NCBI RefSeq assembly: GCF_004363655.1
Contig: NZ_SNZH01000009.1
Location: forward strand, 792 to 64,791
Source: Tahibacter aquaticus
GTDB lineage: Bacteria > Pseudomonadota > Gammaproteobacteria > Xanthomonadales > Rhodanobacteraceae
Direction of reading: 5' to 3'
Length of the DNA: 64,000 bases
Part shown: piece after piece, positions 1 through 16,396 of the stretch
How the letters are laid out: each line of letters begins with the position of its first letter
How positions within the stretch are numbered: the first letter of the stretch is position 1
The notes under the pieces: generated by a model
The model's input: the letters and a program-made list of their open reading frames with translations, nothing else
What the model was told of the DNA's origin: nothing
Database searches by the model: none
Made by a program: the position numbers and the translations under genes

Positions 1-880
1 GGTGATCGTTGCTGCAGCCGTCGTGGCCGTCGTGCCGGTATTCGTGACCTGCAGCGTATAGCTCGCCGGAACGCCGACGGTCCACGGGCTCGCGCTCGCC
101 GTCTTGCTCAGCGTGAGCTGCGGTGCGCCTATTGTGGTCGGTCCCGCCGACGAGCTGCAGCGCGCCGCTGCAGGACAGCCTGAGTCGCCGCCGCCGCTGA
201 CGGTGGCGGTGTTCGTCACGCTGGTGCCCGCTGCCAGTGTCGGTGTGACCGGAATGACAAAGCTCGTGCTTGCAGTCGCGGCCAGGCCGGCAGGAACCGT
301 GCAGGTGACGGTCTGTCCGGCTGCCGTGCAACCCGCTGGCAGCGTGCCGATGGTCAGACCAGTCGGAATCGTGTCAGTGATCGTTGCTGCAGCCGTCGTG
401 GCCGTCGTGCCGGTATTCGTGACCTGCAGCGTATAGCTCGCCGGAACGCCGACGGTCCACGGGCTCGCGCTCGCCGTCTTGCTCAGCGTGAGCTGCGGTG
501 CGCCTATTGCGGTTGGTCCCGCCGTCGAGCTGCAGCGCGCCGCTGCCGGACAGCCTGAGTCGCCGCCGCCGCTGACGGTGGCCGTGTTCGTCACGCTGGT
601 GCCCGCGGCCAGTGTCGGTGTGACCGGAATGACAAAGCTCGTGCTTGCACTCGCGGCCAGGCCGGCAGGAACCGTGCAGGTGACGGTCTGGCCGGCTGCC
701 GTGCAACCCGCTGGCAGCGTGCCGATCGTGAGGCCAGTCGGAATCGTGTCAGTGATCGTTGCTGCAGCCGTCGTGGCCGTCGTGCCGGTATTCGTGACCT
801 GCAGCGTGTAGCTCGCCGGAACGCCGACGGTCCACGGGCTCGCGCTCGCCGTCTTGCTCAGCGTGAGCTGCGGTGCGCCG
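1..880 (-). repeat. 375-bp tandem DUF11-coding repeats
   Basis: The same sequence begins at 2, 377 and 752, an exact 375-bp (125-codon) period. Copies differ by only a few substitutions, for example g/c changes near 286/661 and 314/689. The array continues past the left edge, so copy number is unknown. Two full units and the start of a further one are visible. Confidence 0.9.
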
Positions 881-3753: not shown

Positions 3754-3793
3754 TGGTGGCGGTGGCGGGAATTGAACCCGCGTCCGAAGGCGT
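3754..3793. repeat. attL: orphan copy of the ssrA 3' end
   Basis: Forty bases match 15288-15327 except at 3760 (c here, a at 15294). The copy includes the T-arm sequence GAACCCGCGTCCG and the encoded CCA complement. No tmRNA body follows on its right side, so this is a duplicated target and not a second gene. Confidence 0.85.
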
Positions 3794-3801
3794 GTTGCGA
3801 G

Positions 3802-4359
3802 CTACCGGCTTCGCCGAGCATCGACGCCATACTCGATCAGCAACTCGTCCATCGACGTGCTTATCCCGTAGCCGACCTGGTGACCCAGTCGGCGCACCTG
3901 GTCGAGTCGCGTCCATAGCGCGGGGCGTTGTTGCTCCGGCAGCGCCGCGATGGTCTTCAGTGCCTGCTCGAACATTCGGACCAGCGCGTCGTAATAGCTT
4001 TCATCGTCCAGGCCCACGTCGCTGCTGAAGGCCGCTGCCTGTTCGCAATAGAACACCATCAATTCCGCCAGGCCATCCGGCTGGCCGACTGCTTTCTTGT
4101 AGTCCGCAATGGCCTTCTTTGCCGTAGTCACCGACGTGTTCTGGTTCTTGAGCCAGTTCGGCCAGAGCCAGCGCGTCAGGGTGGCTTTGTAAGGTTTCAG
4201 TACATCGTCTCCGAGGCCGAAGCGCGTGTGCAGGAAGGCCTGGTTGTCCTTGCTGGCGGTGTAGAGGTCGTGGAGCAGGGCGATCAGGCCAGGGTTGTCG
4301 AAACTGGCGAGGTTCTTTTTGACGTCGGTCCAGGTGGGTTTGGTTTTCTTCGCAGGCAC
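3802..4359 (-). CDS. DUF6155 family protein
   Basis: A 185-residue soluble protein starting MPAKKTKPTWTDVKKNLAS. The segment FDNPGLIALLHDLY followed by KDNQAFLHTRF matches my recollection of the DUF6155 family, whose function is unknown. The rest is helical with no membrane segment or catalytic motif. The start ATG at 4359 overlaps a decayed gene fragment upstream, and the stop lies 8 bp from the island boundary, so this is the last gene of the island. DUF6155 genes are often found near restriction and other defence genes, but a link here rests only on location. Confidence 0.7.
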   Translation of the reverse strand: MPAKKTKPTWTDVKKNLASFDNPGLIALLHDLYTASKDNQAFLHTRFGLGDDVLKPYKATLTRWLWPNWLKNQNTSVTTAKKAIADYKKAVGQPDGLAELMVFYCEQAAAFSSDVGLDDESYYDALVRMFEQALKTIAALPEQQRPALWTRLDQVRRLGHQVGYGISTSMDELLIEYGVDARRSR

Positions 4360-4547: not shown

Positions 4548-4979
4548 TCAGACGTAGGCGCTCTGTCCTGCGCCGAAGTAGTGATCGTAGACATGCGCGT
4601 AGGCGCGGGCCAGTTTCTCGGCGCGGATGTCCTTGGTGAACGACGCCGGCAGACGGCCGAACAACTGCTCCAGGGGTTCACTGCCCAGACGCTGGCGGGC
4701 TTGCACGCTGGCGCTGGGCACCGGCACACCTTGCATATCCACGCTCAGCGAGAGGTGCTGCACCACTTGCCTCATGGGTAACTGCCGATACAACGACAGC
4801 CCGATCACCAGCCAGACCGCATGCTCGGCCGGTAGCTTGCGTCGTCGGATGCTTGCTTTACCGCTGGCGGCCAGCGCCTGTTCGATCCAGTGGCTGTCGA
4901 TCAACTGCGCCAACGGGCCGAGCGGGTCGGCATGCACATGCTGCAACGTTTGATTCAGCGTTTCTTGGAGAAGGCGCAA
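4548..4979 (-). pseudogene. IS4-family transposase, N-terminal fragment
   Basis: The first ~115 residues are a typical IS4 transposase N-terminal domain: QLIDSHWIEQALAASGKAS, RRRKLPAEHAVWLVIGL, SASVQARQRLGSEPLEQL. The DDE catalytic domain is absent. After about FGRLPASF the frame passes into an unrelated stretch (RAEKLARAYAHVYDHYFG) and stops after AYV. The upstream base run to about 5036 may include the IS end. This is a deletion scar in which an IS copy was fused to another gene. Confidence 0.7.
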
Positions 4980-5084
4980 AGCAGAAGGGGGGCATGGTGA
5001 ACATGCTCCCCTACGACATTAAATCGCCGGACTAAGGCTTATCTGACTGGCATTGACCGCAAGGGCGGCCTTTTTCGCACGGTT

Positions 5085-5117
5085 TGGTGGTGGAACACGG
5101 AACCGAACCCGCGTCCG
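5085..5117. other. Degenerate second copy of an ssrA 3' end
   Basis: Ungapped alignment with 15288-15320 gives 25 of 33 identical bases, including TGGTGG at one end and GAACCCGCGTCCG at the other. Orientation is the same as attL and attR. It is not part of any gene. It most simply marks the ssrA end of a different, diverged element or host carried inside the island. Confidence 0.55.
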
Positions 5118-5210
5118 CAATCAGAACCAGATAGTAACGCCCGGCCCTGAGTCCCTCAATTTGACGACTTGGCCAGTTCGATCACTTGCTCAGGCACAAA
5201 CAATGGCGCG

Positions 5211-5236
5211 CGATGTCATCGTTCTGATGATATAAA
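5211..5236 (+). promoter_or_regulatory. Candidate promoter/operator of the defence operon
   Basis: CGATG-T-CATCG forms a small inverted repeat at 5211-5221, and a further GATG half lies at 5226-5229, followed by a TATAAA -10-like box at 5231-5236. It is 75 bp upstream of the WYL regulator ATG. CapW/BrxR regulators are known to bind inverted repeats in front of their own operon. No convincing -35 box was seen. Confidence 0.35.
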
Positions 5237-5310
5237 CCGCCTGCCAATGTGCAATCGAACTTCCGTTTTCCGTCTTGCCGTCGCCTGACGTGGATGAGGA
5301 GCGCCTGACC

Positions 5311-6210
5311 ATGCATCCCCAACGCGTCGAGAGCTTGAGCCACCCTCAGCGGGAGCGGCTGGCTTACATCGACTTCCGCCTCTACTTCATGGGTGAAATC
5401 GGCCGCCCTGACTTGGCGAACCGCTTTGGGGTGGCCCCTGCCGGTGCCACACGCGATCTAGCGCTGTACCGGGAAATCGCGCCGCAGAACATCGAGTTCG
5501 ACGGCAGCAACAAGATCTACCGGATCTGCAAGACTTTCTCCCCGATCTTTGAGCACGCGACGCAGCGTGTTTTGTCGGCGCTCGCTCTTGGGTTTGGTGA
5601 TGGCGTAAACGTCGACTCGCAGCCCCTGCTGCCCTGTGAGTCCCCTGCAGCGTTGAGCAGCCCTCGGATGGAAGTGCTGGCTCCGATTTGCCGTGCCATC
5701 CATGCCAAGCACCCAGTGGCGATTCGCTACCACTCGATGAGCAATGGCGAGTCCGAGCGAGTCATCGTGCCGTTTGCGCTGGTGGACACCGGTCTGCGCT
5801 GGCACGTCCGTGCCTTTGACCGCAAGTCCGGCGAATTCCGCGACTTCGTTGTCACCCGCATCGAGACGCCGACTTTGCTTGATGAAGAACCGCAGGCCAA
5901 CGAACGGCCGGACAACGATATCCAGTGGACGCGCATCGTTGAGCTGGACTTCGTGCCGCACCCGCGCCTTGAACGCCCCGAGATCATCAGGATGGACTAC
6001 GGGATGACCGACGGATCGATCCGGATGCGCGTTCGCGCCGCCGTCGCAGGCTACATGCTGCTGCGCTGGAGCGTGGACTGCTCGCCCGACCACCGCCTCA
6101 AAGAAGAACAGTACCGCCTATGGCTCAGCGATCCGCTGGCGCTTTACGGCGTCGAGAACGCCAAGCTGGCTCCCGGCTACCAAGCGCCGACCAGCCCCAA
6201 GAAACGATAG
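5311..6210 (+). CDS. WYL-domain transcriptional regulator, CapW/BrxR type
   Basis: A 299-residue protein with an N-terminal winged-helix region (about 10-75, including LANRFGVAPAGATRDLALYR) and a WYL domain from about residue 130 (HPVAIRYHSM, then LRWHVRAFD). A C-terminal dimer region of WCX type follows. This order is that of CapW/BrxR regulators, which repress phage-defence operons and respond to infection through a ligand bound by WYL. The ATG at 5311 was chosen because GAGGAG lies 9 bp upstream; an in-frame TTG at 5275 has no such site. The next gene begins 11 bp after the stop, so it is the first gene of the operon and probably its own repressor. Confidence 0.85.
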   Translation: MHPQRVESLSHPQRERLAYIDFRLYFMGEIGRPDLANRFGVAPAGATRDLALYREIAPQNIEFDGSNKIYRICKTFSPIFEHATQRVLSALALGFGDGVNVDSQPLLPCESPAALSSPRMEVLAPICRAIHAKHPVAIRYHSMSNGESERVIVPFALVDTGLRWHVRAFDRKSGEFRDFVVTRIETPTLLDEEPQANERPDNDIQWTRIVELDFVPHPRLERPEIIRMDYGMTDGSIRMRVRAAVAGYMLLRWSVDCSPDHRLKEEQYRLWLSDPLALYGVENAKLAPGYQAPTSPKKR

Positions 6211-6221
6211 GAAAGAACACG

Positions 6222-7979
6222 ATGGCCAAGACACTTGAAGCGCATGACAAGCTGATCCGCGAGATTTTCGAAGGCAGTTACCAGTTCGAGATCCCGGACT
6301 ACCAGCGCCCCTACGCGTGGACGACTGAGCAGGCGGGTGAGTTGTTCGACGATTTGATCTCGGCCATGCAGGACGCCCGCGTCTCCGGTGCGACCAGCCA
6401 ATACTTCCTCGGCAGCATCGTGCTGATTAAAAACGACCGGGAACCGAAATCATCCGTCGTCGATGGCCAGCAACGCCTCTCCACGCTGACGATGCTGTTC
6501 GCGGTGCTGCGCGAGGCCATGCCGCACGCCGCCGACGACATCACCGATTTCCTCTACAAGAAAGGCAAGGTCAGCCTCGGCGAGAAAAACGAATACCGCC
6601 TGACCGCCCGCGAGGAAGACGCCAACTTCTTCCGCGCCAACATTCAGGAGCCGGGTGGCATTGCGCAGTTGGTCGCCAGCACCGACAAGCTGGAAGACAG
6701 CCGTCTGCGTTACCGCGAAAACGCCACGCTGCTGCTGGGCAAGGCCAAGGCGCTACCGCCTGCCGACCTGATCGCGCTGTGGCAGTTCCTCGCCAACGAC
6801 TGCTCGCTGGTCGTCATCTCCACGCCTGATCTCGAAGCCGCGTACCGCATCTTTTCCGTGCTCAACAACCGGGGGCTCGACCTCGCGCCCATCGACATCA
6901 TCAAGGCACAGGTGCTGGGTCTGATCCGCACGACGGCGGGCGATGTCAAAAGCCGTGCCTACGCCAAGGAGTGGAGCCGGATTGAAACCGCACTTGGCCG
7001 CGATGCCTTTGGCGATCTGTTCGGTCACATCCGCACCATCTACGCCAAGCAGAAGCAGCGGGCCACGCTGGTCAAGGAATTCCAGGAGCACGTCACCGAG
7101 TACAAGGCCCCCATCGACCTCGTCGACAAGGTCATCAAGCCCTACGCCGAAGTGTGGGACTTCGTGCGCGACGCCGACTTCGAGGCCACCGAGCACGCCG
7201 AGACGATCAATGAGCACCTGTCCTGGCTCAACCGCGTGGACTTCAAAGACTGGGTGCCCCCGGCACTGGTCTATTTCAAGCGCTTCCGGCAAAAGCCCAA
7301 GCTGCTCGCGGAATTTTTCGAATCACTGGAACGGCTCACCTATTTCCTGCTGGTCACCAAGGTGGGCATCAACGAGCGCATTGAAACCTACGCTGCGCTA
7401 ACAAAGGAAATCGAACCGGAGACTCTCAAGGGGGGGCTGGCCGAGCTCACCACGCTGGCTCTGACAGACGCGCAAAAACGCACGTTCGCCGCGGCACTCG
7501 ATGGCGACGTTTACGACGATTTGCCCAAGGCGCGGATGGCGCTGGTCTTGCGTCTTGAATCGCTGGTGCGAGCTCCCGGAGTGCAACTGCAGAGCGCCGT
7601 GTCGTTGGAGCACGTGCTACCGCAGACACCGCCGGATGGCTCGGACTGGCTGCAGTGGTTCCCCGATGAGGACGAACGCGAAGCGTGGACACACCGCCTC
7701 GCCAACTTGGTTCCGCTTGACCGGAACAAGAATTCGTCCGCCAGCAACTACGACTTCGCAAAAAAGAAAAATGTGTACTTCAAGGGCAAGGGCACCGCAT
7801 CACCCTTCGTCCTGACGCAGGAAGTCCGCTCGGAAGACGAATGGACACCGGCGATGCTGATTGATCGGCAAGAGCGCCTTGTCGGCGTGCTCAAGAAACA
7901 CTGGGCACTTGAAGTACCGCCAACCGGATCAGTCAGCAAAGCGCCTGACACAACAAAAGCATCGCAAGGGCAGGCTTAA
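6222..7979 (+). CDS. GmrSD-type DUF262-DUF1524 nuclease
   Basis: A 585-residue single-chain protein. The N-terminal DUF262 domain shows IPDYQRPYAW (24-33) and VVDGQQRLSTLTML with DGQQR at 81-85, the nucleotide-binding/hydrolysing motif of the family. The C-terminal DUF1524 domain has an HNH-type core: EHVLPQ with H464, then NLVPLDRNKN from N495. Such fusions are type IV-like restriction enzymes (GmrSD) that cut modified phage DNA, and relatives such as BrxU and SspE act in other defence systems. It starts 11 bp after the WYL gene and its TAA overlaps the hsdM ATG by one base, so it is translated in the same operon. An upstream in-frame start at 6120 would lie inside the WYL gene and is unlikely. 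Confidence 0.88.
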   Translation: MAKTLEAHDKLIREIFEGSYQFEIPDYQRPYAWTTEQAGELFDDLISAMQDARVSGATSQYFLGSIVLIKNDREPKSSVVDGQQRLSTLTMLFAVLREAMPHAADDITDFLYKKGKVSLGEKNEYRLTAREEDANFFRANIQEPGGIAQLVASTDKLEDSRLRYRENATLLLGKAKALPPADLIALWQFLANDCSLVVISTPDLEAAYRIFSVLNNRGLDLAPIDIIKAQVLGLIRTTAGDVKSRAYAKEWSRIETALGRDAFGDLFGHIRTIYAKQKQRATLVKEFQEHVTEYKAPIDLVDKVIKPYAEVWDFVRDADFEATEHAETINEHLSWLNRVDFKDWVPPALVYFKRFRQKPKLLAEFFESLERLTYFLLVTKVGINERIETYAALTKEIEPETLKGGLAELTTLALTDAQKRTFAAALDGDVYDDLPKARMALVLRLESLVRAPGVQLQSAVSLEHVLPQTPPDGSDWLQWFPDEDEREAWTHRLANLVPLDRNKNSSASNYDFAKKKNVYFKGKGTASPFVLTQEVRSEDEWTPAMLIDRQERLVGVLKKHWALEVPPTGSVSKAPDTTKASQGQA

Positions 7980-8193
7980 TGAAACCCGTAAAACAACAAG
8001 ATCAAAGCAATCTGAAGTGGGTAGCCGACTTCATCTGGAATATCGCTGACGACCGCCTGCGCGATGTGTACGTGCGCGGCAAGTACCGTGACGTGATCCT
8101 TCCCTTCACCGTGCTGCGGCGGCTCGACGCCGTGCTGGAGTCGACCAAGCAGGCGGTGCTGGAGCGCAAGAAGTTCCTCGACACGCACAAGTC
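7979..8193 (+). pseudogene. hsdM: hsdM 5' part, cut off by a one-base frameshift
   Basis: The ATG at 7979 overlaps the preceding stop codon. The product starts MKPVKQQDQSNLKW and matches the HsdM N-terminal helical domain through LERKKFLDTHK. After the AAG codon at 8189-8191 one G is missing: with it, the next codons read V-A-E-Q-D-G-A-L-R-M, joining perfectly to the frame of the main hsdM part. As written, the frame runs 76 more codons of nonsense to a stop at 8417-8419. Confidence 0.8.
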
Positions 8194-8217
8194 GCAGAGC
8201 AGGACGGCGCGCTGCGC

Positions 8218-10371
8218 ATGGCAGCCGGGCAAGCGTTCTACAATACATCGGAATTCACCCTCGCCACTCTCACGGCCAGTGGACAAGGACAGCGCCTTCG
8301 GGACAACTTCGTTGATTACCTGGACGGTTTCTCCCCGAACGTTCAGGACATCTTGGCAAAGTTCAAGTTTCGAGACCAGATCCAAACGATGGTCGAGGCC
8401 GACATCCTCGGTCACTTGATTAACGACTTCCTTGACCCGGAGATCAACCTCGCACCGCTTCCTGTCAAAGATACAGACGGCCGGATCAAGCTGCCCGCAC
8501 TCGACAACCACGGTATGGGCACGGTGTTTGAGGAGTTGATCCGCCGTTTCAACGAAGAGAACAACGAAGAGGCTGGAGAACACTTCACGCCGCGCGACGT
8601 GGTCAAGCTGATGGCCAAGTTGCTGTTCCTGCCGGTGGCCGACCAAATCCAGTCTGGTACCTACCTGCTGTACGACGGTAGCTGCGGCACGGGCGGCATG
8701 CTGACCGTGGCTGAAGAGGCACTGCACGAGCTGGCAGCGAACCACGACAAGGAAGTGTCGATTCACCTGTTCGGGCAGGAGATCAACCCCGAGACCTACG
8801 CGATCTGCAAGGCCGACCTGCTGCTCAAGGGCGAAGGTGACGAGGCCGAGAACATCGTCGGCGGCGCGGACAAGTCGACACTGTCGGCCGATCAGTTCCG
8901 GTCGCGCGAGTTCGACTTCATGATCTCTAACCCGCCTTACGGCAAGAGTTGGAAGACCGACCTCGACCGGATGGGCGGCAAGAAGGAATTCAGCGATTCG
9001 CGCTTCATCGTCAATCACGGCGGCGATTCCGAATTCAAGCTCATCACCCGTTCCAGCGACGGGCAGCTGATGTTCCTGGTGAACAAGCTGCAGAAGATGA
9101 AGCACAACACGCCGCTGGGCAGCCGCATCGCGCTGGTGCATAACGGTTCGGCGCTGTTTACGGGCGATGCGGGCCAGGGCGAAAGCAATGTTCGGCGCTG
9201 GGTGCTGGAGAACGACTGGCTCGAAGCCATCATCGCTCTGCCACTCAACATCTTCTACAACACCGGTATCGCCACCTACATCTGGGTGCTGGCCAACAAG
9301 AAGCCCGCACACCGGCGCGGCAAGGTGCAACTGATCGACGCTTCGCAGTGGTTCCTGCCGATGCGGCGCAACCTTGGCAAGAAGAACTGCGAGTTGGCGG
9401 ATGCAGACATTGAACGCATCCTCAAGCACTACCTCGCCCAGCCGCCCGCCGATGCCGAAGCCGCAAAGGCAGTGCCCGAATGCAAGTGGTTCGACAACGC
9501 CGACTTCGGCTACTGGAAGATCACGGTCGAACGTCCGCTGCGCCTCAAGAGCCAGCTCAAACGCAGCTCCATCGAAAGCTTGCGCTTCGCAACGGGCGAC
9601 GAAGCCCTGCGCAGCGAGATTTACGCCAAGTACAACGACAAGCTGTACACGGAATTCGCCAAGCTCAAAGCCGAAATCGAAGCGTGGCTGAAGGGTGACG
9701 ATGGCGACGAAGATGCCGACGAGGAGTCGGACGACGAAGACGCCAAGACCACCAGGAAGGCCGTGCCGGAGAAGCGGCGCAAGAAGCTGCTCGACCCCGC
9801 GACGTGGCAGCGCGACAAGACCCTTGTGGAACTGGCCAAGCTGGCGCAGCAGGAACTTGGCGAAGGCGTCTTTGACGACCACAACGAGTTCCGCACACGC
9901 TTTGACGCCACGATGAAGGCGCACAGCAAGAAGCTGGGTGCTCCCGAGAAGAAGGCCATCTACAAGGCGGTGAGTTGGCGTGATGAGTCGGCCCCGCCGG
10001 TCATTGCCAAACGCAGCAAGCTCAAGGCGAGTGAGCATTTCGAACCCGGCTACGACGGCGCGTACCTGGAAACCGTGGGCAAGGATCGTTTCATGGTGGA
10101 GTACGAGGCCGATAGCGACTTGCGCGACACAGAGCAGGTGCCGCTCAAGGAGCCCGGGGGCATAGAAGCCTTCTTCGTGCGCGAGGTGCTGCCCCACGCA
10201 CCGGATGCGTGGATCGCAATGGACGCATCCAAGATCGGCTACGAGATCTCGTTCGCGCGCTACTTCTACAAACCGACCCCGCTGCGCACGCTGGATCAGA
10301 TTCGCGCTGACATCCTCAAGCTGGAGGAGCAGACGGAAGGCTTGCTGCACAAGATCGTGGGGGCGGCGTGA
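8218..10371 (+). CDS. hsdM: Type I restriction-modification methyltransferase HsdM, main part
   Basis: This frame encodes 717 residues of an N6-adenine methyltransferase (M subunit). Motif I appears as DGSCGTGGML and the catalytic motif IV as NPPY at residues 238-241. The family also shows EHFTPRDVV and the GQEINPETYAICK segment. About 80 N-terminal residues lie in another frame because of a missing G after 8191. The ATG at 8218 is an internal methionine with no clear ribosome site, so without correction the protein would lack its first domain. An acidic/basic linker (DDGDEDADEESDDED, about 500-515) is unusual. The stop TGA overlaps the hsdS ATG. HsdM would methylate the site chosen by HsdS. 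Confidence 0.9.
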   Translation: MAAGQAFYNTSEFTLATLTASGQGQRLRDNFVDYLDGFSPNVQDILAKFKFRDQIQTMVEADILGHLINDFLDPEINLAPLPVKDTDGRIKLPALDNHGMGTVFEELIRRFNEENNEEAGEHFTPRDVVKLMAKLLFLPVADQIQSGTYLLYDGSCGTGGMLTVAEEALHELAANHDKEVSIHLFGQEINPETYAICKADLLLKGEGDEAENIVGGADKSTLSADQFRSREFDFMISNPPYGKSWKTDLDRMGGKKEFSDSRFIVNHGGDSEFKLITRSSDGQLMFLVNKLQKMKHNTPLGSRIALVHNGSALFTGDAGQGESNVRRWVLENDWLEAIIALPLNIFYNTGIATYIWVLANKKPAHRRGKVQLIDASQWFLPMRRNLGKKNCELADADIERILKHYLAQPPADAEAAKAVPECKWFDNADFGYWKITVERPLRLKSQLKRSSIESLRFATGDEALRSEIYAKYNDKLYTEFAKLKAEIEAWLKGDDGDEDADEESDDEDAKTTRKAVPEKRRKKLLDPATWQRDKTLVELAKLAQQELGEGVFDDHNEFRTRFDATMKAHSKKLGAPEKKAIYKAVSWRDESAPPVIAKRSKLKASEHFEPGYDGAYLETVGKDRFMVEYEADSDLRDTEQVPLKEPGGIEAFFVREVLPHAPDAWIAMDASKIGYEISFARYFYKPTPLRTLDQIRADILKLEEQTEGLLHKIVGAA

Positions 10372-11801
10372 TGGGGGCGGAGTATTCCGACTACCGAACG
10401 TCCGAAGCGTCGTGGGTGGAGCGCATCCCCGCGCATTGGCGCACGGCACGATTGCGCTATGTTGCTCGCGTCGGCAATGGAACGACGCCTGCGCGCGGCC
10501 GGTTCGACTACTGGAGTAACGGCACCGTGCCGTGGCTGGCAAGCGGGCAGGTCAATGACTACATCGTGCGCAAGGCGCGCGAGCTGGTCACAGCGCAGGC
10601 CGTCAAGGAATCGTGTCTTCGAGTTCTGCCAGCGGGCAGCGTGATCCTTGGCATGGTTGGCCAGGGCAAGACGCGCGGCATGTCGGCGTATCTCGCCATC
10701 GATGCGACTATCAACCAGAACCTGGCGGGCATCACGCCGGGCAAGGAGCTGGATGGGCGCTACCTGCACTACATGCTGACCGCAGCCTACGACTTCCAGC
10801 GCAACTACGGTCGCGGCGGCAATCAGGCGGCATTGAACTGCGCCATCGTCGGCAGCTTCCCGACTTTGTTGCCACCCCGCCAAGAGCAAGACAAGATCGT
10901 CGCCTATCTCCGGGCGCAGGATGCCCGCATCTCCCGCCTCATCAAGGCCAAGCGCGAACTGATTGGCCTTCTCACAGAACAGAAGTTGCGCATCATTGAC
11001 CACGCTGTCACGCGCGGCCTCGATGACTCGGTCGCGTTGAAGCCATCTGGCATCGAGTGGTTGGGGGATGTGCCCCTGCACTGGGATATTGCCCTGGTAA
11101 AGCACGTCGCTGATGTGCGCTTCAGTGGTGTGGACAAGCATTCGCATGATCACGAAACGTCAGTTCGTCTGTGCAACTACACAGACGTCTACAAGAACGA
11201 CAAGATCACCGGCGACATGGATTTGATGCAAGCCACTGCGACGGCAGGAGAAATCGCCCGGCTCACGCTCAAAGCGGGCGACGTCATCATCACTAAGGAT
11301 TCTGAAACGCCGGACGACATTGCGGTGCCCGCATGGGTGCCAGTCGGGCTTCCTGGTGTGGTCTGCGCCTACCACCTTGGATTGCTGCGACCCGAGCCCG
11401 GTCGCATCGAGGGTGAGTTCCTGTTTCGCGCCATCGGGTCTGCCCGTATCGCCGAGCAATTTCACGTGCTGGCAACCGGTGTCACCCGATTCGCCCTCGG
11501 CAAGCACGATGTCAAGAACGCCGTCATCCCGCTACCGCCGATAGGAGAACAGAAGGTCATCTGCAGGTGGATTGCCGATGAGTGCAAGCCACTCGAAGAA
11601 GCCATCCTGCGGGCGGAAGACGAAATCAAGCTGATCCGCGAATACCGCGACCGGCAAATCGCCGATGTCGTCACAGGCCAAGTGGATGTTCGCGGCTGGG
11701 TGTCCGGCCCGGATGACGTTGTGGCCGACGAAGACTTGGCTGTGCTCGGCAGCGACGACGAACTGGATACCGATGGGGAGGAAGAAGATGGCGACGACTG
11801 A
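10371..11801 (+). CDS. hsdS: Type I restriction-modification specificity subunit HsdS
   Basis: A 476-residue S subunit with two target-recognition domains. TRD1 begins at WVERIPAHW and TRD2 at IEWLGDVPLHWD. Each is followed by a conserved helical spacer: LLPPRQEQDKIVAYL with RLIKAKRELIGLL, and PLPPIGEQKVICRW with EDEIKLIREYRDR. The two halves would each bind one half of a bipartite DNA target, which cannot be read from sequence alone. The ATG at 10371 overlaps the hsdM stop; a GTG at 10368 is the alternative. The C-terminus ends in an acidic tail (DELDTDGEEEDGDD). Confidence 0.93.
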   Translation: MGAEYSDYRTSEASWVERIPAHWRTARLRYVARVGNGTTPARGRFDYWSNGTVPWLASGQVNDYIVRKARELVTAQAVKESCLRVLPAGSVILGMVGQGKTRGMSAYLAIDATINQNLAGITPGKELDGRYLHYMLTAAYDFQRNYGRGGNQAALNCAIVGSFPTLLPPRQEQDKIVAYLRAQDARISRLIKAKRELIGLLTEQKLRIIDHAVTRGLDDSVALKPSGIEWLGDVPLHWDIALVKHVADVRFSGVDKHSHDHETSVRLCNYTDVYKNDKITGDMDLMQATATAGEIARLTLKAGDVIITKDSETPDDIAVPAWVPVGLPGVVCAYHLGLLRPEPGRIEGEFLFRAIGSARIAEQFHVLATGVTRFALGKHDVKNAVIPLPPIGEQKVICRWIADECKPLEEAILRAEDEIKLIREYRDRQIADVVTGQVDVRGWVSGPDDVVADEDLAVLGSDDELDTDGEEEDGDD

Positions 11802-14784
11802 TACCAGCGAAAAAGGCCTGGAGGCCTTGATCGTGCGCGATCTCTGCACCGGCGGCGGCTATGTGCAGGGCAACCCCAGCGACTACAACCGCGACGTGGC
11901 GGTGGACGTGGTGCAGTTGCTGGCGTTTCTGCAGGCCACCCAGCCCAAGGCGGTCGAAACACTGGAACTGGCAAGCGAGGGCATCAAGCGCACCCAGTTC
12001 TTGCACCGCATCCAGGGCGAGATCGCCAAGCGGGGTGTGGTGGATGTGCTGCGCAAGGGCGTGGGCCACGGCCCGGTTCACGTTGATCTGTACAAGCTGC
12101 TGCCCACGCCGGGCAACGCCAGTGCTGCCGAGAACTTCGGCAAGAACATCTTCAGCGTCACCCGCCAGTTGCGCTACAGCAATGACGAGTCGCAGCGCTC
12201 GCTGGACGTTGCCATCTTCATCAATGGCCTGCCGGTGATGACGTTCGAGTTGAAGAACTCGCTGACCAAGCAGACCGTCGCCGACGCCATCACCCAGTAC
12301 CAGACTGATCGCAACCCGGCCGAGCTGCTGTTCCAATTGGGGCGCTGCGTGGCGCACATGGCGGTGGACGATGCCGAAGTGCGGTTCTGCCCGCATCTTA
12401 CTGGCAAGACCTCCTGGTTCCTGCCGTTCAACCAGGGTTGGAACAGCGGCGCAGGCAATCCGCCCAACCCGCATGGCCTGAAAACCGACTATCTGTGGAA
12501 GCAGGTGCTGGTCAAGGACTCGCTGGCCAACATCATCGAGAACTTCACGCAGGTGGTGGAAGAGGAAGATGAAAAGGGCAAAAAGCGGCGCAAGCAAGTG
12601 TTTCCGCGTTTTCACCAACTGCGTACCGTCCGTGCCTTGCTGCGCCGCTCCCGCGAGGATGGGGTTGGCAAGCGTTATCTCATCCAGCATTCGGCAGGCA
12701 GCGGCAAGAGCAACACCATCGCGTGGCTGGCCCACCAGTTGGTCGAACTCAAGACGGCCGCCGATGCGATGTTGGCTCAATTCGACTCGGTGATCGTCAT
12801 CACCGACCGACGTGCGCTGGATACCCAGATCGCCCGCACCATCAAAAGCTACAACCACGTCGCGTCGACCTTCGGCCATTCCGAGGATGCCGCCGAGCTG
12901 CGCACCTTCCTGCGCAAAGGCAAGAAGATCATCGTCACGACGGTGCAGAAGTTCCCGTTCATCCTCGATGAGCTGGGCGACCTCGGCGGCAAGAAGTTCG
13001 CGTTGCTGATCGACGAGGCGCATTCCAGCCAGGGCGGCAAGACGACGGCCAAGATGCACATGGCCTTGTCGGGCGCTCCTGGTGACGATGAGGACGACGA
13101 GGAATCCGTTGAGGACGCCGTCAACAAACTGATCGAGTCGCGCAAGATGTTGTCGAATGCCAGCTACTTCGCATTCACGGCCACGCCGAAAAATCGAACG
13201 TTAGAGTTGTTCGGGGAGCGGTTCATCGAAGGCAGTGAGGCGCGTTACCGCTCGCCGGAGGAGCTGACCTACACCACCAAGCAGGCGATTCAAGAGGGTT
13301 TCATCCTCGACGTGATTGCGAACTACACGTCGGTTGACAGCTTCTATCACGTCGCCAAGACAGTCGAGGACGATCCCGATTTCGACAAGGTGAAGGCGCT
13401 GAAGAAGATTCGTCACTACGTCGAATCCCACGATAAGGCCATCCGCAAGAAGGCCGAGATCATGGTCGACCACTTCGTGGCGCAGGTGGCGGGCAAGCAA
13501 AAGATCGGTGGCAAGGCGCGAGCGATGATCGTTTGCAACGGCATCGCACGGGCCATCGACTACTACCGCGAGGTGTCGGATTACCTCGCCTCAATCAAGA
13601 GTCCGTTCAAGGCCATCGTGGCGTACTCGGGCGACTTTGACATTGGCGGGGTGAGGAAGACCGAAGCCGATCTCAACCAATTCCCGAGCAAGGACATTCC
13701 GTCCAAGCTCAAGCAAGACCCGTATCGCTTTCTGATCGTCGCCAACAAGTTCATCACCGGCTTCGACGAGCCGCTGCTGCACACGATGTACGTGGACAAG
13801 CCATTGGCGGGCGTGCTGGCGGTGCAAACGCTGTCGCGGCTGAACCGAGCCCACCCGCAGAAGCGCGATACCTTCGTGCTGGACTTTGCCGACAACGCCG
13901 AGGCGGTAAAGGCTGCATTCCAGGACTATTACCGCGCGACGGTGCAGGTCGGCGAAACCGACCCCAACAAGCTGCATGACTTGAAGAACGACCTCGATGC
14001 CAAGCAGGTGTACAGCTGGCAGCAGGTTGATGATTTGGTTGCGCTCTATGTCACCGGCGCAGACCGCGACAAGCTCGACCCCATTCTCGATACCTGTGTG
14101 GCCGAGTACATCGACAACCTGGACGAAGACGGTCAAGTCGAGTTCAAGGGCAAAGCCAAGGCTTTCGTGCGTAGCTACGGCTTTCTTGCTGCGATCCTGA
14201 CCTACGGCCACCCGGCCTGGGAAAAGCTGTCGATCTTCCTGAACTTCCTGATCCCAAAGCTACCGGCCCCGAAGGAGGAAGACCTCTCCAAGGGCGTGCT
14301 GGAAGCCATCGACATGGACAGCTATCGGGTAGAAGCGCAGGCGTCACTGAAGATGTCGATGGACGATGCCGACGCCTTCATCGAACCGCCCCCTCCCGGC
14401 GGGGGCGGCGGTGGCGGTACGCCGGAAATCGACAAGTTGTCGAACATCATCAGAGCCTTCAACGACATGTTCGGCAACATCGAGTGGAAGGACGGCGACA
14501 AGATTCGAAAGGTCATTACCGAGGAAATTCCGGCGCGCGTGGCTCAGGACAAGGCCTACCAAAACGCGCAGGCCAACTCCGACAAGCAGAACGCCAAGCT
14601 GGAGCACGACAAGGCGCTCAATCGCGTGGTGCTGGAGCTGATCTCCGACCACACGGAGCTATTCAAGCAGTTCAGTGACAACCCGAGCTTCAAGCGCTGG
14701 CTGACCGACATGGTCTTCGACTCGACCTACCACCCAGGCACGGTGCCGCCTAAGGCCTCTCCTCCAACCGGCGCGTCTGCGTGA
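11788..14784 (+). CDS. hsdR: Type I restriction endonuclease subunit HsdR
   Basis: A 998-residue motor-nuclease subunit. The N-terminal PD-(D/E)xK nuclease has D140 and E154-L-K156 (FELKN) followed by AITQYQ. The SF2 translocase follows with Walker A SAGSGKSN (302-309), DEAH box D409-H412 and FTATPKNRT. A proline/glycine linker (EPPPPGGGGGGG) near residue 870 precedes a C-terminal helical region that docks onto the methylase. All catalytic residues look intact. The ATG at 11788 overlaps hsdS by 14 bp; a longer in-frame extension would lie inside hsdS. With HsdM and HsdS it forms the R2M2S complex that translocates and cuts unmethylated DNA. Confidence 0.93.
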   Translation: MATTDTSEKGLEALIVRDLCTGGGYVQGNPSDYNRDVAVDVVQLLAFLQATQPKAVETLELASEGIKRTQFLHRIQGEIAKRGVVDVLRKGVGHGPVHVDLYKLLPTPGNASAAENFGKNIFSVTRQLRYSNDESQRSLDVAIFINGLPVMTFELKNSLTKQTVADAITQYQTDRNPAELLFQLGRCVAHMAVDDAEVRFCPHLTGKTSWFLPFNQGWNSGAGNPPNPHGLKTDYLWKQVLVKDSLANIIENFTQVVEEEDEKGKKRRKQVFPRFHQLRTVRALLRRSREDGVGKRYLIQHSAGSGKSNTIAWLAHQLVELKTAADAMLAQFDSVIVITDRRALDTQIARTIKSYNHVASTFGHSEDAAELRTFLRKGKKIIVTTVQKFPFILDELGDLGGKKFALLIDEAHSSQGGKTTAKMHMALSGAPGDDEDDEESVEDAVNKLIESRKMLSNASYFAFTATPKNRTLELFGERFIEGSEARYRSPEELTYTTKQAIQEGFILDVIANYTSVDSFYHVAKTVEDDPDFDKVKALKKIRHYVESHDKAIRKKAEIMVDHFVAQVAGKQKIGGKARAMIVCNGIARAIDYYREVSDYLASIKSPFKAIVAYSGDFDIGGVRKTEADLNQFPSKDIPSKLKQDPYRFLIVANKFITGFDEPLLHTMYVDKPLAGVLAVQTLSRLNRAHPQKRDTFVLDFADNAEAVKAAFQDYYRATVQVGETDPNKLHDLKNDLDAKQVYSWQQVDDLVALYVTGADRDKLDPILDTCVAEYIDNLDEDGQVEFKGKAKAFVRSYGFLAAILTYGHPAWEKLSIFLNFLIPKLPAPKEEDLSKGVLEAIDMDSYRVEAQASLKMSMDDADAFIEPPPPGGGGGGGTPEIDKLSNIIRAFNDMFGNIEWKDGDKIRKVITEEIPARVAQDKAYQNAQANSDKQNAKLEHDKALNRVVLELISDHTELFKQFSDNPSFKRWLTDMVFDSTYHPGTVPPKASPPTGASA

Positions 14785-15287: not shown

Positions 15288-15327
15288 TGGTGGAGGTGGC
15301 GGGAATTGAACCCGCGTCCGAAGGCGT
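15288..15327. repeat. attR: 3' end of ssrA
   Basis: Forty bases repeat those at 3754-3793 with one difference at 15294. They encode the tmRNA T-arm and acceptor strand. This is the junction at which the island was inserted while keeping ssrA functional. Confidence 0.85.
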
Positions 15328-15641
15328 TTGACGCCAGGTACTACATGCTTAGCTCACTGTTAAATCTCGTCCGTCGGCAGCACAGTGTGCAAGGCGCACC
15401 GGAAGACCAGTCTGTAAGTTTTAGCCGAGCCCCGACAGACGGCGGTTCTCAGCGATCTTGTGATAATGACCCTACATCCACGAGCACAAGCACAAGTGGG
15501 TTCGGGGCTAGGCCTTAAGCGGCCAGTGCGTAGACGTCGTCGTTGGCGTCTGAGTTTTTTGCCGCTGGATTAACGAGGAAAGCTGCCCCCTCGGCATGCA
15601 CCCAACCATCTCACTACCCCCGTCGAAGCCGTGACACCCCC
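15288..15641 (-). ncRNA. ssrA: Transfer-messenger RNA (tmRNA)
   Basis: A 354-nt RNA on the minus strand. The 5' end reads GGGGGTGTCACGGCTTCGAC from 15641 and the encoded CCA is at 15288-15290. Acceptor strands GGGGGTG and CACCTCC pair over seven positions with one G-U. The tag frame at 15515-15547 encodes ANDDVYALAA and a TAA stop, the typical proteobacterial degradation tag. With SmpB (20392-20886) it rescues stalled ribosomes and marks the product for proteolysis. A TAGCAT box about 11 bases upstream could be the -10. The 3' end is shared with the island junction. Confidence 0.97.
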
Positions 15642-15911: not shown

Positions 15912-16396
15912 GCGGGTCCGAACGGCAGCGTCGCAGGTTTTATCTGGAGCGACGCAGTTTTTTTCTGCAACGGTGCAGGTCTGACCTGAAGCCATGCAGG
16001 TTTTATCTGCAACAGTGCAGGTTTGATCTGGAGCGACGCAGTTTTTTTCTGCAACGGCGCAGGTTTGACCTGAAGCCATGCAGGTTTTATCTGCAACGGT
16101 GCAGGTTTGATCTGGCGCGACGCAGTTTTTTTCTGCAACGGCGCAGGTTTGACCTGAAGCCATGCAGGTTTTATCTGAAGCGACGCAGGTTTTTTTCCTG
16201 CAATGGTGCAGGTTTGATCTGCAGCGCCGCAGGTTTTATCTGCAACGACGCAGGTCTGACCTGAAGCCATGCAGGTTTTATCTGCAACGGCGCAGGTTTT
16301 ATCTGCACCGATGCAGGTCTGACCTGAAGTGATGCGGCGTTTATGGGGAACGATGCAGGTCTGATCGGCAGCGCCGCAGGTTTCGACGGGGTCGGA
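15912..16396. repeat. 21-bp minisatellite with 84-bp higher-order period
   Basis: About 23 consecutive units start with GCAG or GCAGGT every 21 bp (for example 15933, 15954, 15975, 15996). Units at 15954, 16038 and 16122 are nearly identical, showing a four-unit (84-bp) super-repeat. One unit at 16185 is 23 bp long. Many units contain GCAG...CTGC and could form small hairpins. On the minus strand the array is open in more than one frame, coding heptads such as LQIKPAP; the 23-bp unit shifts that frame. No spacers occur, so it is not a CRISPR. Outer units (16334 and beyond, and 15912) are degenerate. Confidence 0.85.

Follow-up and report, generated by a model that had tools for sequence, protein, structure and literature searches.

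RESULTS AND DISCUSSION

A five-gene set led by a WYL regulator

The 64-kb stretch analyzed here (hereafter, the window; contig NZ_SNZH01000009.1 of the Tahibacter aquaticus assembly GCF_004363655.1) carries, at 5311 to 14784 on the forward strand, a WYL-type transcriptional regulator followed by a GmrSD-family nuclease and a type I restriction-modification (R-M) system. Gene assignments in this interval are based on open reading frame (ORF) calling and Pfam. The regulator gene (5311 to 6210, 299 amino acids, with a possible alternative GTG start at 5290) encodes a protein that matches Pfam WYL at an E value of 1.8e-14 and was further characterized by phmmer against PDB and by the ratio of nonsynonymous to synonymous substitution rates (dN/dS). 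Next comes the fused GmrSD-family nuclease (6222 to 7979, 585 amino acids), with GmrSD_N (6.8e-37) and GmrSD_C (1.1e-23) both above cut-off. The type I genes comprise an N-terminal hsdM piece (7979 to 8419), the remainder of hsdM in another frame (8218 to 10371; N6_Mtase, 6.4e-52), the specificity gene hsdS (10368 to 11801, starting with GTG at 10368 or ATG at 10371; Methylase_S, 2.8e-18), and the restriction gene hsdR (11788 to 14784, 998 amino acids; HSDR_N, 3e-19; SWI2_SNF2, 3.4e-26). All three components, hsdR, hsdM, and hsdS, are thus detected by Pfam. Neither the WYL nor the GmrSD protein received a name from NCBIfam, and the top PADLOC labels for GmrSD were Orf5 and HEC-06.

The genes are closely joined. 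An 11-bp gap separates WYL from GmrSD, GmrSD overlaps hsdM by 1 bp at 7979, hsdM overlaps hsdS by 1 bp at 10371 (ATG start) or by 4 bp (GTG start at 10368), and hsdS overlaps hsdR by 14 bp. These junction lengths, obtained from ORFs and Pfam, agree with an earlier interpretation of the letters alone (the sequence-only reading), which had described five co-directional genes. The 14-bp hsdS/hsdR overlap was found in 13 of 14 measurable loci, counting the window and two near-identical plasmids, and relatives keep the order, so the arrangement goes beyond chance. Terminator-like sites were not enriched (12 versus 10.3 +/- 3.9 in shuffles).

Judged by its sequence, the regulator belongs to the BrxR/CapW family (winged helix-turn-helix, WYL, and C-terminal dimerization domains). 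The CapW/BrxR likeness noted in the sequence-only reading is borne out by a full-length match, in which residues 6 to 291 align to residues 7 to 293 of BrxR 7QFZ (E value of 3.9e-87, phmmer against PDB), the Escherichia fergusonii BrxR (PMC9122601; here and below, published work is represented by excerpts of the cited papers). Further PDB matches were CapW 9c5g (7.5e-38), 7tb5 (1.4e-31), 7tb6 (1.5e-29), and Acinetobacter BrxR 7t8k (4.9e-26), together with a weak match to PafBC. In BrxR, R17 is reported as essential for DNA binding (PMC9122601); the QRER of 7QFZ is aligned to a QRER here, and the R17 equivalent is kept if chain and native numbering agree. R16 of the regulator is invariant in nine homologues, as are R163, W164, and H165, among others, in the WYL domain, and the dN/dS of the gene is 0.06 to 0.09 against four relatives. 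A second, distant WYL relative (33%) lies elsewhere in the genome (G000:C28:13677-14408).

A conserved palindrome upstream of the regulator gene

Upstream of the WYL gene, on the same strand, lies a predicted operator of 21 bp (5213 to 5233), with 9-bp arms and a 3-bp spacer, in which seven of the nine arm pairs match in the window. The palindrome is common to 14 WYL genes of at least 82% identity (the window, 11 loci from the GmrSD scan described below, L094, and L095; L numbers denote compared loci and G numbers genomes) within otherwise poorly conserved upstream DNA. It lies upstream of the codon that aligns with WYL residue 1, at a distance of 74 to 78 bp in 12 of the 14 loci and of 64 and 104 bp in the rest; L026 (WYL, 84%), with 22 bp of upstream DNA only, falls outside this comparison. 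When each locus was scored with a matrix derived from the remaining 13, the operator ranked first in all 14 (on the opposite strand in L030), three of these leave-one-out scans covering stretches of only 3.9 to 6.5 kb. The consensus that placed the site was made after viewing an alignment of 14 regions, two of which (L018 and L020) are without it, a circularity that the leave-one-out procedure limits and does not remove. Across the 64 kb of the window, the operator scores 24.7 with its leave-one-out matrix, versus 11.4 for the runner-up place; in the 7.27-Mb genome, it is the sole match at one mismatch, with one more place at two mismatches.

Furthermore, the site precedes the WYL gene, with 16 to 17 of 21 letters, on five plasmid stretches (L133 to L137), which are close mutual relatives and not independent. 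It is absent from L022, L036, L037, and L038, where GmrSD-hsdMSR is kept and no intact WYL gene is present (best places, 11 to 12 of 21 letters).

By eye, the aligned upstream regions point to a promoter at this place, with a -35-like TTGCTC (5186 to 5191, forward strand) and a degenerate -10-like hexamer, CGCGAT (5209 to 5214, forward strand), which overlaps the operator by 2 bp. TTG occupies the exact -35 position in 8 of 12 upstream regions, 17 bp before the operator-overlapping hexamer, and in seven relatives with TTG at the same spacing the hexamer reads CATGAT, CATAAT, or TATTAT. The palindrome at the regulator's own promoter is predicted to be an operator, a prediction supported by conservation.

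The GmrSD nuclease and the type I genes

Both Pfam and motifs assign the nuclease to the GmrSD family named in the sequence-only reading, with residues invariant in 16 sequences that include family motifs and a His-Me finger (Q28-R29, DGQQR at 81 to 85, F211/N215, H464, N495, and N504). A structure model (mean predicted local distance difference test score of 83) agrees, giving eight fold matches at E values of 1e-3 or lower, all of them DndI, SspE, and BrxU chains (5e-15, 7e-13, and 1.2e-6, respectively), with whole-chain template modeling (TM) scores of at most 0.56. The family assignment stands; the cutting of modified phage DNA is presumed from the family, the best fold match being the phosphorothioate-sensing DndI. 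The dN/dS of GmrSD against relatives is 0.08 to 0.15.

The single intact hsdM gene of the sequence-only reading was not found. The frame from 7979 is HsdM for 71 residues, is then lost to a frameshift, and stops at 8419, so that the HsdM reading frame is not intact in this genome as assembled (a draft of 82 contigs); the same region reads through in all ten relatives translated. Downstream of the break, the dN/dS of hsdM is 0.05 to 0.14 against four relatives, like that of the other genes, which suggests that the break is recent or a draft error. Because of this frameshift, only the repressor and GmrSD look functional here as assembled. Purifying selection was seen on the four genes tested (0.04 to 0.17), including hsdR (0.04 to 0.17). 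The first recognition half of HsdS (residues 1 to 160) has 5 to 35% identity to all seven sequences compared (40-residue bins), and the second (241 to 400) has 80 to 100% identity in L015, L033, L030, and L047 and 12 to 32% in L025, L037, and L023, a pattern of ordinary exchange of recognition halves.

Gene order among relatives

An alignment of five GmrSD sequences, used to scan contigs, yielded at least 542 relatives, from which 78 loci were retained; in 26 of these, the near loci, GmrSD identity is at least 59%. WYL stands directly upstream in 14 of these 26 (L015, L016, L018, L020, L021, L023, L025, L026, L028, L030, L033, L035, L039, and L047), a large gene intervenes in four (L017, L019, L024, and L034), only a WYL remnant is left in one (L036), and seven have no WYL (L022, L027, L029, L031, L032, L037, and L038). 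GmrSD-hsdM-hsdS-hsdR is kept in 15 (L015, L016, L019, L022, L023, L025, L028, L030, L033, L034, L036 to L039, and L047), and the neighborhood check of the full WYL-GmrSD-HsdMSR order found all five genes in nine (L015, L016, L023, L025, L028, L030, L033, L039, and L047). Five of these nine sets are compact and open throughout (L015, L025, L030, L033, and L047); the others have extra DNA among the hsd genes (L016, L028, and L039), a broken hsdR (L028), or two stops in GmrSD (L023). Among the remaining near loci, L017 has no hsdR match, hsdM is cut in L024, and the type I system of L018 and L020 is unrelated; L021, L026, and L035 are cut off by the ends of short contigs, and in L027, L029, L031, and L032 neither WYL nor related hsd genes accompany GmrSD.

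A related WYL gene was found directly upstream in none of the 52 loci with GmrSD below 50% identity, one lying 8 kb off (L079); these distant loci were scored with the WYL and Hsd proteins of the window only (tblastn, E value of 1e-8 or lower), which undercounts other WYL and type I genes. PF04313 positions from 44 genomes form part of none of these counts. At about 45% GmrSD identity, L041, L042, L043, and L046 have the order hsdM-hsdS-GmrSD without WYL, with hsdR downstream in three. Consequently, of the fixed order proposed in the sequence-only reading, the recurrence of WYL in first place stood; the order itself is modular and not fixed.

Several near loci hold additional genes. A protein of 1,814 amino acids (DUF4011/AAA/MTES_1575; L017:4519-9963) lies between a WYL of 55 to 57% identity and GmrSD, and recurs in L019 (interrupted by an insertion), L024, and L034. 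A PRTase-CE gene sits between hsdM and hsdS in L016 (14154-15188) and DUF1828/DUF1829 between hsdS and hsdR in L039 (17712-18551). Divergent neighbors with DUF3375 or DUF3584, which we take to be Wadjet (Jet) components, occur at L018:7465-8949, L123:436-1902, and L033:5152-8862.

At the DNA level, in the 12 relatives compared, homology starts at 5203 to 5213 in L028, L035, L039, and L047 and between 5084 and 5317 in L015, L016, L021, L023, L025, and L033. It ends at 14784/14785, the hsdR stop codon, in eight of nine relatives with a match past 14500; in the ninth, L039, the end is set by the end of its stretch.

Other cargo behind the same head and carriage on plasmids

In a separate class sample, 52 of 369 genomes, that of the window included, hold a WYL relative at an E value of 1e-20 or lower, and GmrSD adjoins the WYL gene in 2 of 30 returned loci (about 1.5 kb on each side), the window and G473. 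Behind WYL-GmrSD, G473 has an unrelated type I hsd set with SIR2 and Abi_C genes, and in G528 the same WYL-plus-operator head precedes an unrelated type I set without GmrSD. By locus, WYL and operator stand before a different type I system with GmrSD in L124 (same record as L094) and without GmrSD in L123 (same record as L095). SIR2 and Abi_C genes lie among the hsd genes of L124; in L123, a pair of SIR2-STALD and ThsB-like TIR genes follows. The comparison shows that WYL with its operator, GmrSD, and HsdMSR recombine as modules. It is a tentative possibility that BrxR and the 21-bp operator form a portable head that captures varied restriction cargo and would make type IV and type I systems inducible together by one WYL-sensed signal; the candidate cargo kinds would be GmrSD with HsdMSR, GmrSD with an unrelated HsdMSR and SIR2/Abi_C, and an unrelated HsdMSR without GmrSD.

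When 72,556 plasmid records were searched with a Klebsiella WYL-GmrSD-hsdM query, 95 matched, 79 of them across 80% or more of the query, and 72 of the 95 are predicted to be conjugative. In E. coli, the same query matched 6 of 5,426 genomes, four over at least 80%, all plasmid-borne. In both E. coli plasmids examined, all five genes are present and none is flagged as a pseudogene in the annotation; hsdS and hsdR overlap by 14 bp, and the set lies downstream of a short TnsE-annotated gene. In the two Klebsiella plasmids examined, hsdR is broken (L133) or hsdM is cut (L134), and the Salmonella plasmid examined has WYL without GmrSD. Directly upstream of WYL are a TniQ gene in L023 (6094-8954) and TnsD/TnsE-annotated genes on plasmids L133 to L137, neighbors that hint at Tn7-like carriage. 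The plasmid copies L134 and L137 lie near drug resistance genes. A serine-recombinase triad next to the operon was considered as a general carrier and dropped: L038 and L056 gave matches, L015 a DUF2924 piece, and the window none.

Proposed control of the operon and competing explanations

Taken together, these observations probably describe a mobile, autoregulated restriction operon, in which type IV and type I systems share one repressor-controlled transcript. A BrxR-family dimer would bind the palindromic operator overlapping the -10 and repress a single promoter, which would drive the repressor, GmrSD, hsdM, hsdS, and hsdR, and the repressor would be released by a ligand that arises in the course of infection or DNA damage. 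The site in this scheme comes from a comparative footprint, and binding, repression, and the single transcript are extrapolated from BrxR/CapW and the gene junctions. Once expressed, GmrSD would act on modification-bearing DNA and HsdMSR on DNA without the host mark, giving complementary barriers, as their families and the TgvAB and BrxU systems suggest.

Several results weigh against this interpretation. WYL proteins of 55 to 63% identity (L017, L018, L019, L020, L024, and L034) are without the site, their best palindromes matching in five to six of nine pairs. Tested locus by locus in even-length windows against shuffles, palindromes reached significance in none of 20 loci; the site, which has an odd spacer, was found later with arms of 9 bp around a spacer of 3 bp. 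A sigma-70 consensus scan found no promoter-like site at 5000 to 5400, and the -35/-10 assignment consequently rests on aligned relatives, read by eye. DNA homology begins only at the WYL gene, and not at the operator, in L016, L021, L023, and L033, and 12 of the 26 near loci are without a directly adjacent intact WYL gene, which implies that the cargo can exist without it. In the window itself, the -10 is poor, and with hsdM broken either the type I arm of this copy is dead or the draft sequence has an error. Additionally, cleavage of modified DNA by this GmrSD, and the modification concerned, are extrapolated from its family.

The state of this copy gives substance to a different explanation, that the operon came in with an island and is now a dying relic here, its hsdM frameshifted, its promoter drifted, and GmrSD alone perhaps still acting. 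The hsdM frameshift is joined here by the degenerate -10 and a truncated transposase-like frame (both by eye), and elsewhere by a cut hsdM (L024 and L134) and a broken hsdR frame (L028 and L133), while GmrSD, full-length and open in 22 of the 26 near loci, seems to be spared. However, it is not always spared, with two stops in L023 and one in L029; hsdS and hsdR are open in the window, and the dN/dS of 0.05 to 0.14 in hsdM past the break, like that of other genes, fits a recent break or a draft error. We regard such decay as a real possibility, if not the leading one. The modules could also be chance neighbors in a defense island, independent and without common control, as the loci with GmrSD and no WYL or related hsd genes (L027, L029, L031, and L032), the other hsd genes of L124, the WYL without GmrSD of L123, and the unequal synonymous divergence (dS) between genes of one locus (in L033, 1.43 for WYL and 0.25 for hsdR) would allow; moreover, proximity to type I genes is common for GmrSD at large (PMC4619093). 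Nonetheless, the recurring order, the overlaps, the one conserved site, and the common end points of homology make mere coincidence improbable.

Competing explanations also concern the purpose of the two components. Rather than sensing phage, the repressor might control dosage on transfer, allowing a burst of expression in a naive cell that is then closed by autorepression. The operon's presence on plasmids predicted to be conjugative in 72 of the 95 matching records fits this proposal, as does the toxicity of deleting the BrxR gene in Acinetobacter BREX (bacteriophage exclusion; PMC9122589). We consider it rather unlikely, since expression of CBASS (cyclic-oligonucleotide-based antiphage signaling system) reportedly rises upon phage infection in a CapW-dependent manner (PMC9122588) and the invariance of R163, W164, and H165 in nine homologues fits a kept sensor. 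It is quite improbable that GmrSD is linked to a mark on the DNA of its own host, in the manner of DndI and SspE, which sense phosphorothioates, and not to phage base modifications. The precedence of DndI (5e-15) and SspE (7e-13) over BrxU (1.2e-6) among the PDB fold matches favors such a link, but the whole-chain TM scores are modest and the matches may reflect the shared fold alone; GmrSD proteins of 89 to 90% identity stand beside unrelated HsdMSR (L018, L020, and L124), some have no related hsd genes, and the HsdS recognition halves vary where GmrSD does not.

Relation to known systems

The autoregulated operon favored here has several published parallels. In the RptR-DarTG2-type I R-M island of enteropathogenic E. 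coli (PMC12255303), a small repressor also comes first in the operon, a second defense module is housed within type I R-M, the sites overlap the -10, and regulator and site are conserved with the type I system. Unlike the WYL regulator, RptR is a 79-amino-acid protein of another kind with 6-bp sites, and its DarTG2 module sits among the hsd genes, whereas GmrSD precedes hsdM here. TgvAB of the Vibrio cholerae VPI-2 type I cluster and Campylobacter RloF likewise place a GmrSD-family enzyme in an operon with hsdM, hsdS, and hsdR (PMC11411939, PMC12409362, and PMC4619093), and complementary action on modified and unmodified phages has been proposed for TgvAB (PMC11411939 and PMC12409362). TgvAB differs in consisting of two proteins, TgvA and TgvB, between hsdS and hsdR (PMC11411939 and PMC12409362); the TgvAB/RloF arrangement, with GmrSD in that position, differs from the one here, where GmrSD comes before hsdM. 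The excerpted account names no WYL gene for the TgvAB operon, the VPI-2 WYL gene VC1772 lying upstream of ddmDE (PMC11411939 and PMC12409362).

Closer in its regulator is the pEFER island of BREX and BrxU (PMC9122601), where an island that includes a GmrSD enzyme is under the control of BrxR, which has an inverted-repeat site near its promoter; the partner is BREX and not type I R-M, and the arms and spacer of the site measure 11 and 5 bp, versus 9 and 3 here. According to Picton et al., BrxR homologues neighbor both type IV systems (37/210) and type I systems (34/210), and the excerpts describe no WYL-GmrSD-HsdMSR operon (PMC9122601). CapW of CBASS is also a WYL repressor with a palindrome (19 to 24 bp) overlapping the -10, unlike the present case in that its cargo is CBASS (PMC9122588). 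As for the nuclease, type I systems were the most frequent defense neighbors of GmrSD according to Machnicka et al. (PMC4619093).

The literature consulted, partly as excerpts and without subscription papers, preprints, or supplements, did not contain the WYL-GmrSD-HsdMSR operon with its site. The sequence-only reading had supposed that the combination may be known in parts, and its parts and logic are indeed in print (BrxR/BrxU, TgvAB, and RptR), the specific operon and site being what was not met there. Its further idea, a guard against phages with modified and unmodified genomes alike, is also in print for TgvAB and BrxU and here is extrapolated from families. Against that literature, what appears new is the predicted 21-bp operator together with the WYL-led GmrSD-HsdMSR operon.

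Type I and type IV restriction have mostly been studied as separate barriers. Here, both stand behind a single repressor and a single conserved site in an operon that recurs in several genera and on plasmids predicted to be conjugative, and joint, possibly inducible control of the two becomes directly testable. Moreover, the operon offers a site and a reporter for finding the signal sensed by WYL repressors, and BrxR/CapW-type control would reach to type I R-M, a parallel to RptR.

The island at the tmRNA gene and its surroundings

The operon lies within an island bordered by the host transfer-messenger RNA (tmRNA) gene (15288 to 15641, reverse strand; ARAGORN), the insertion target. An attL-like copy of the tmRNA 3' end stands at 3754 to 3793 on the forward strand, identical to 15288-15327 at 39 of 40 positions. 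In an empty-site comparison with six same-genus tmRNA loci (L126 to L131), the left flank of the window, from about 3495, runs straight into tmRNA in two (L128 and L131) and lies about 0.2 kb from it in L127, with no flank match within 1.5 kb in the three others. The tmRNA-end repeat and this comparison therefore define 3754 to about 15287 as an island inserted at the tmRNA gene. G+C content is about 59 to 62% over the operon versus mostly 65 to 70% elsewhere in the window. Tyrosine-recombinase matches numbered none on contig C9 and 16 elsewhere in the genome, and one serine-recombinase query set gave no match in the window; the truncated transposase-like frame, seen by eye only, lies in the island at about 4550 to 4985 on the minus strand. 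The tmRNA address is not general, since among the 26 near loci only the stretch of L047 contains tmRNA.

Just upstream of the operon, 5085-5124 is a third, diverged tmRNA/tRNA-end-like copy (68%), shared with the environmental strain Luteibacter sp. Sphag1AF (L015, from about 8858), in whose stretch no tmRNA was found; it is perhaps an older attachment site carried along. The island also holds a 185-amino-acid ORF (3802-4359, minus strand) with a DUF6155 match of 26.5 bits versus a cut-off of 27. Beside the tmRNA gene, at 15925-16383, a 21-bp unit is repeated imperfectly about 22 times (67% matches; 81% at an 84-bp period), and near-identical 375-bp tandem repeats (97%, 2.3 copies) occur at the left end of the window (2-879).

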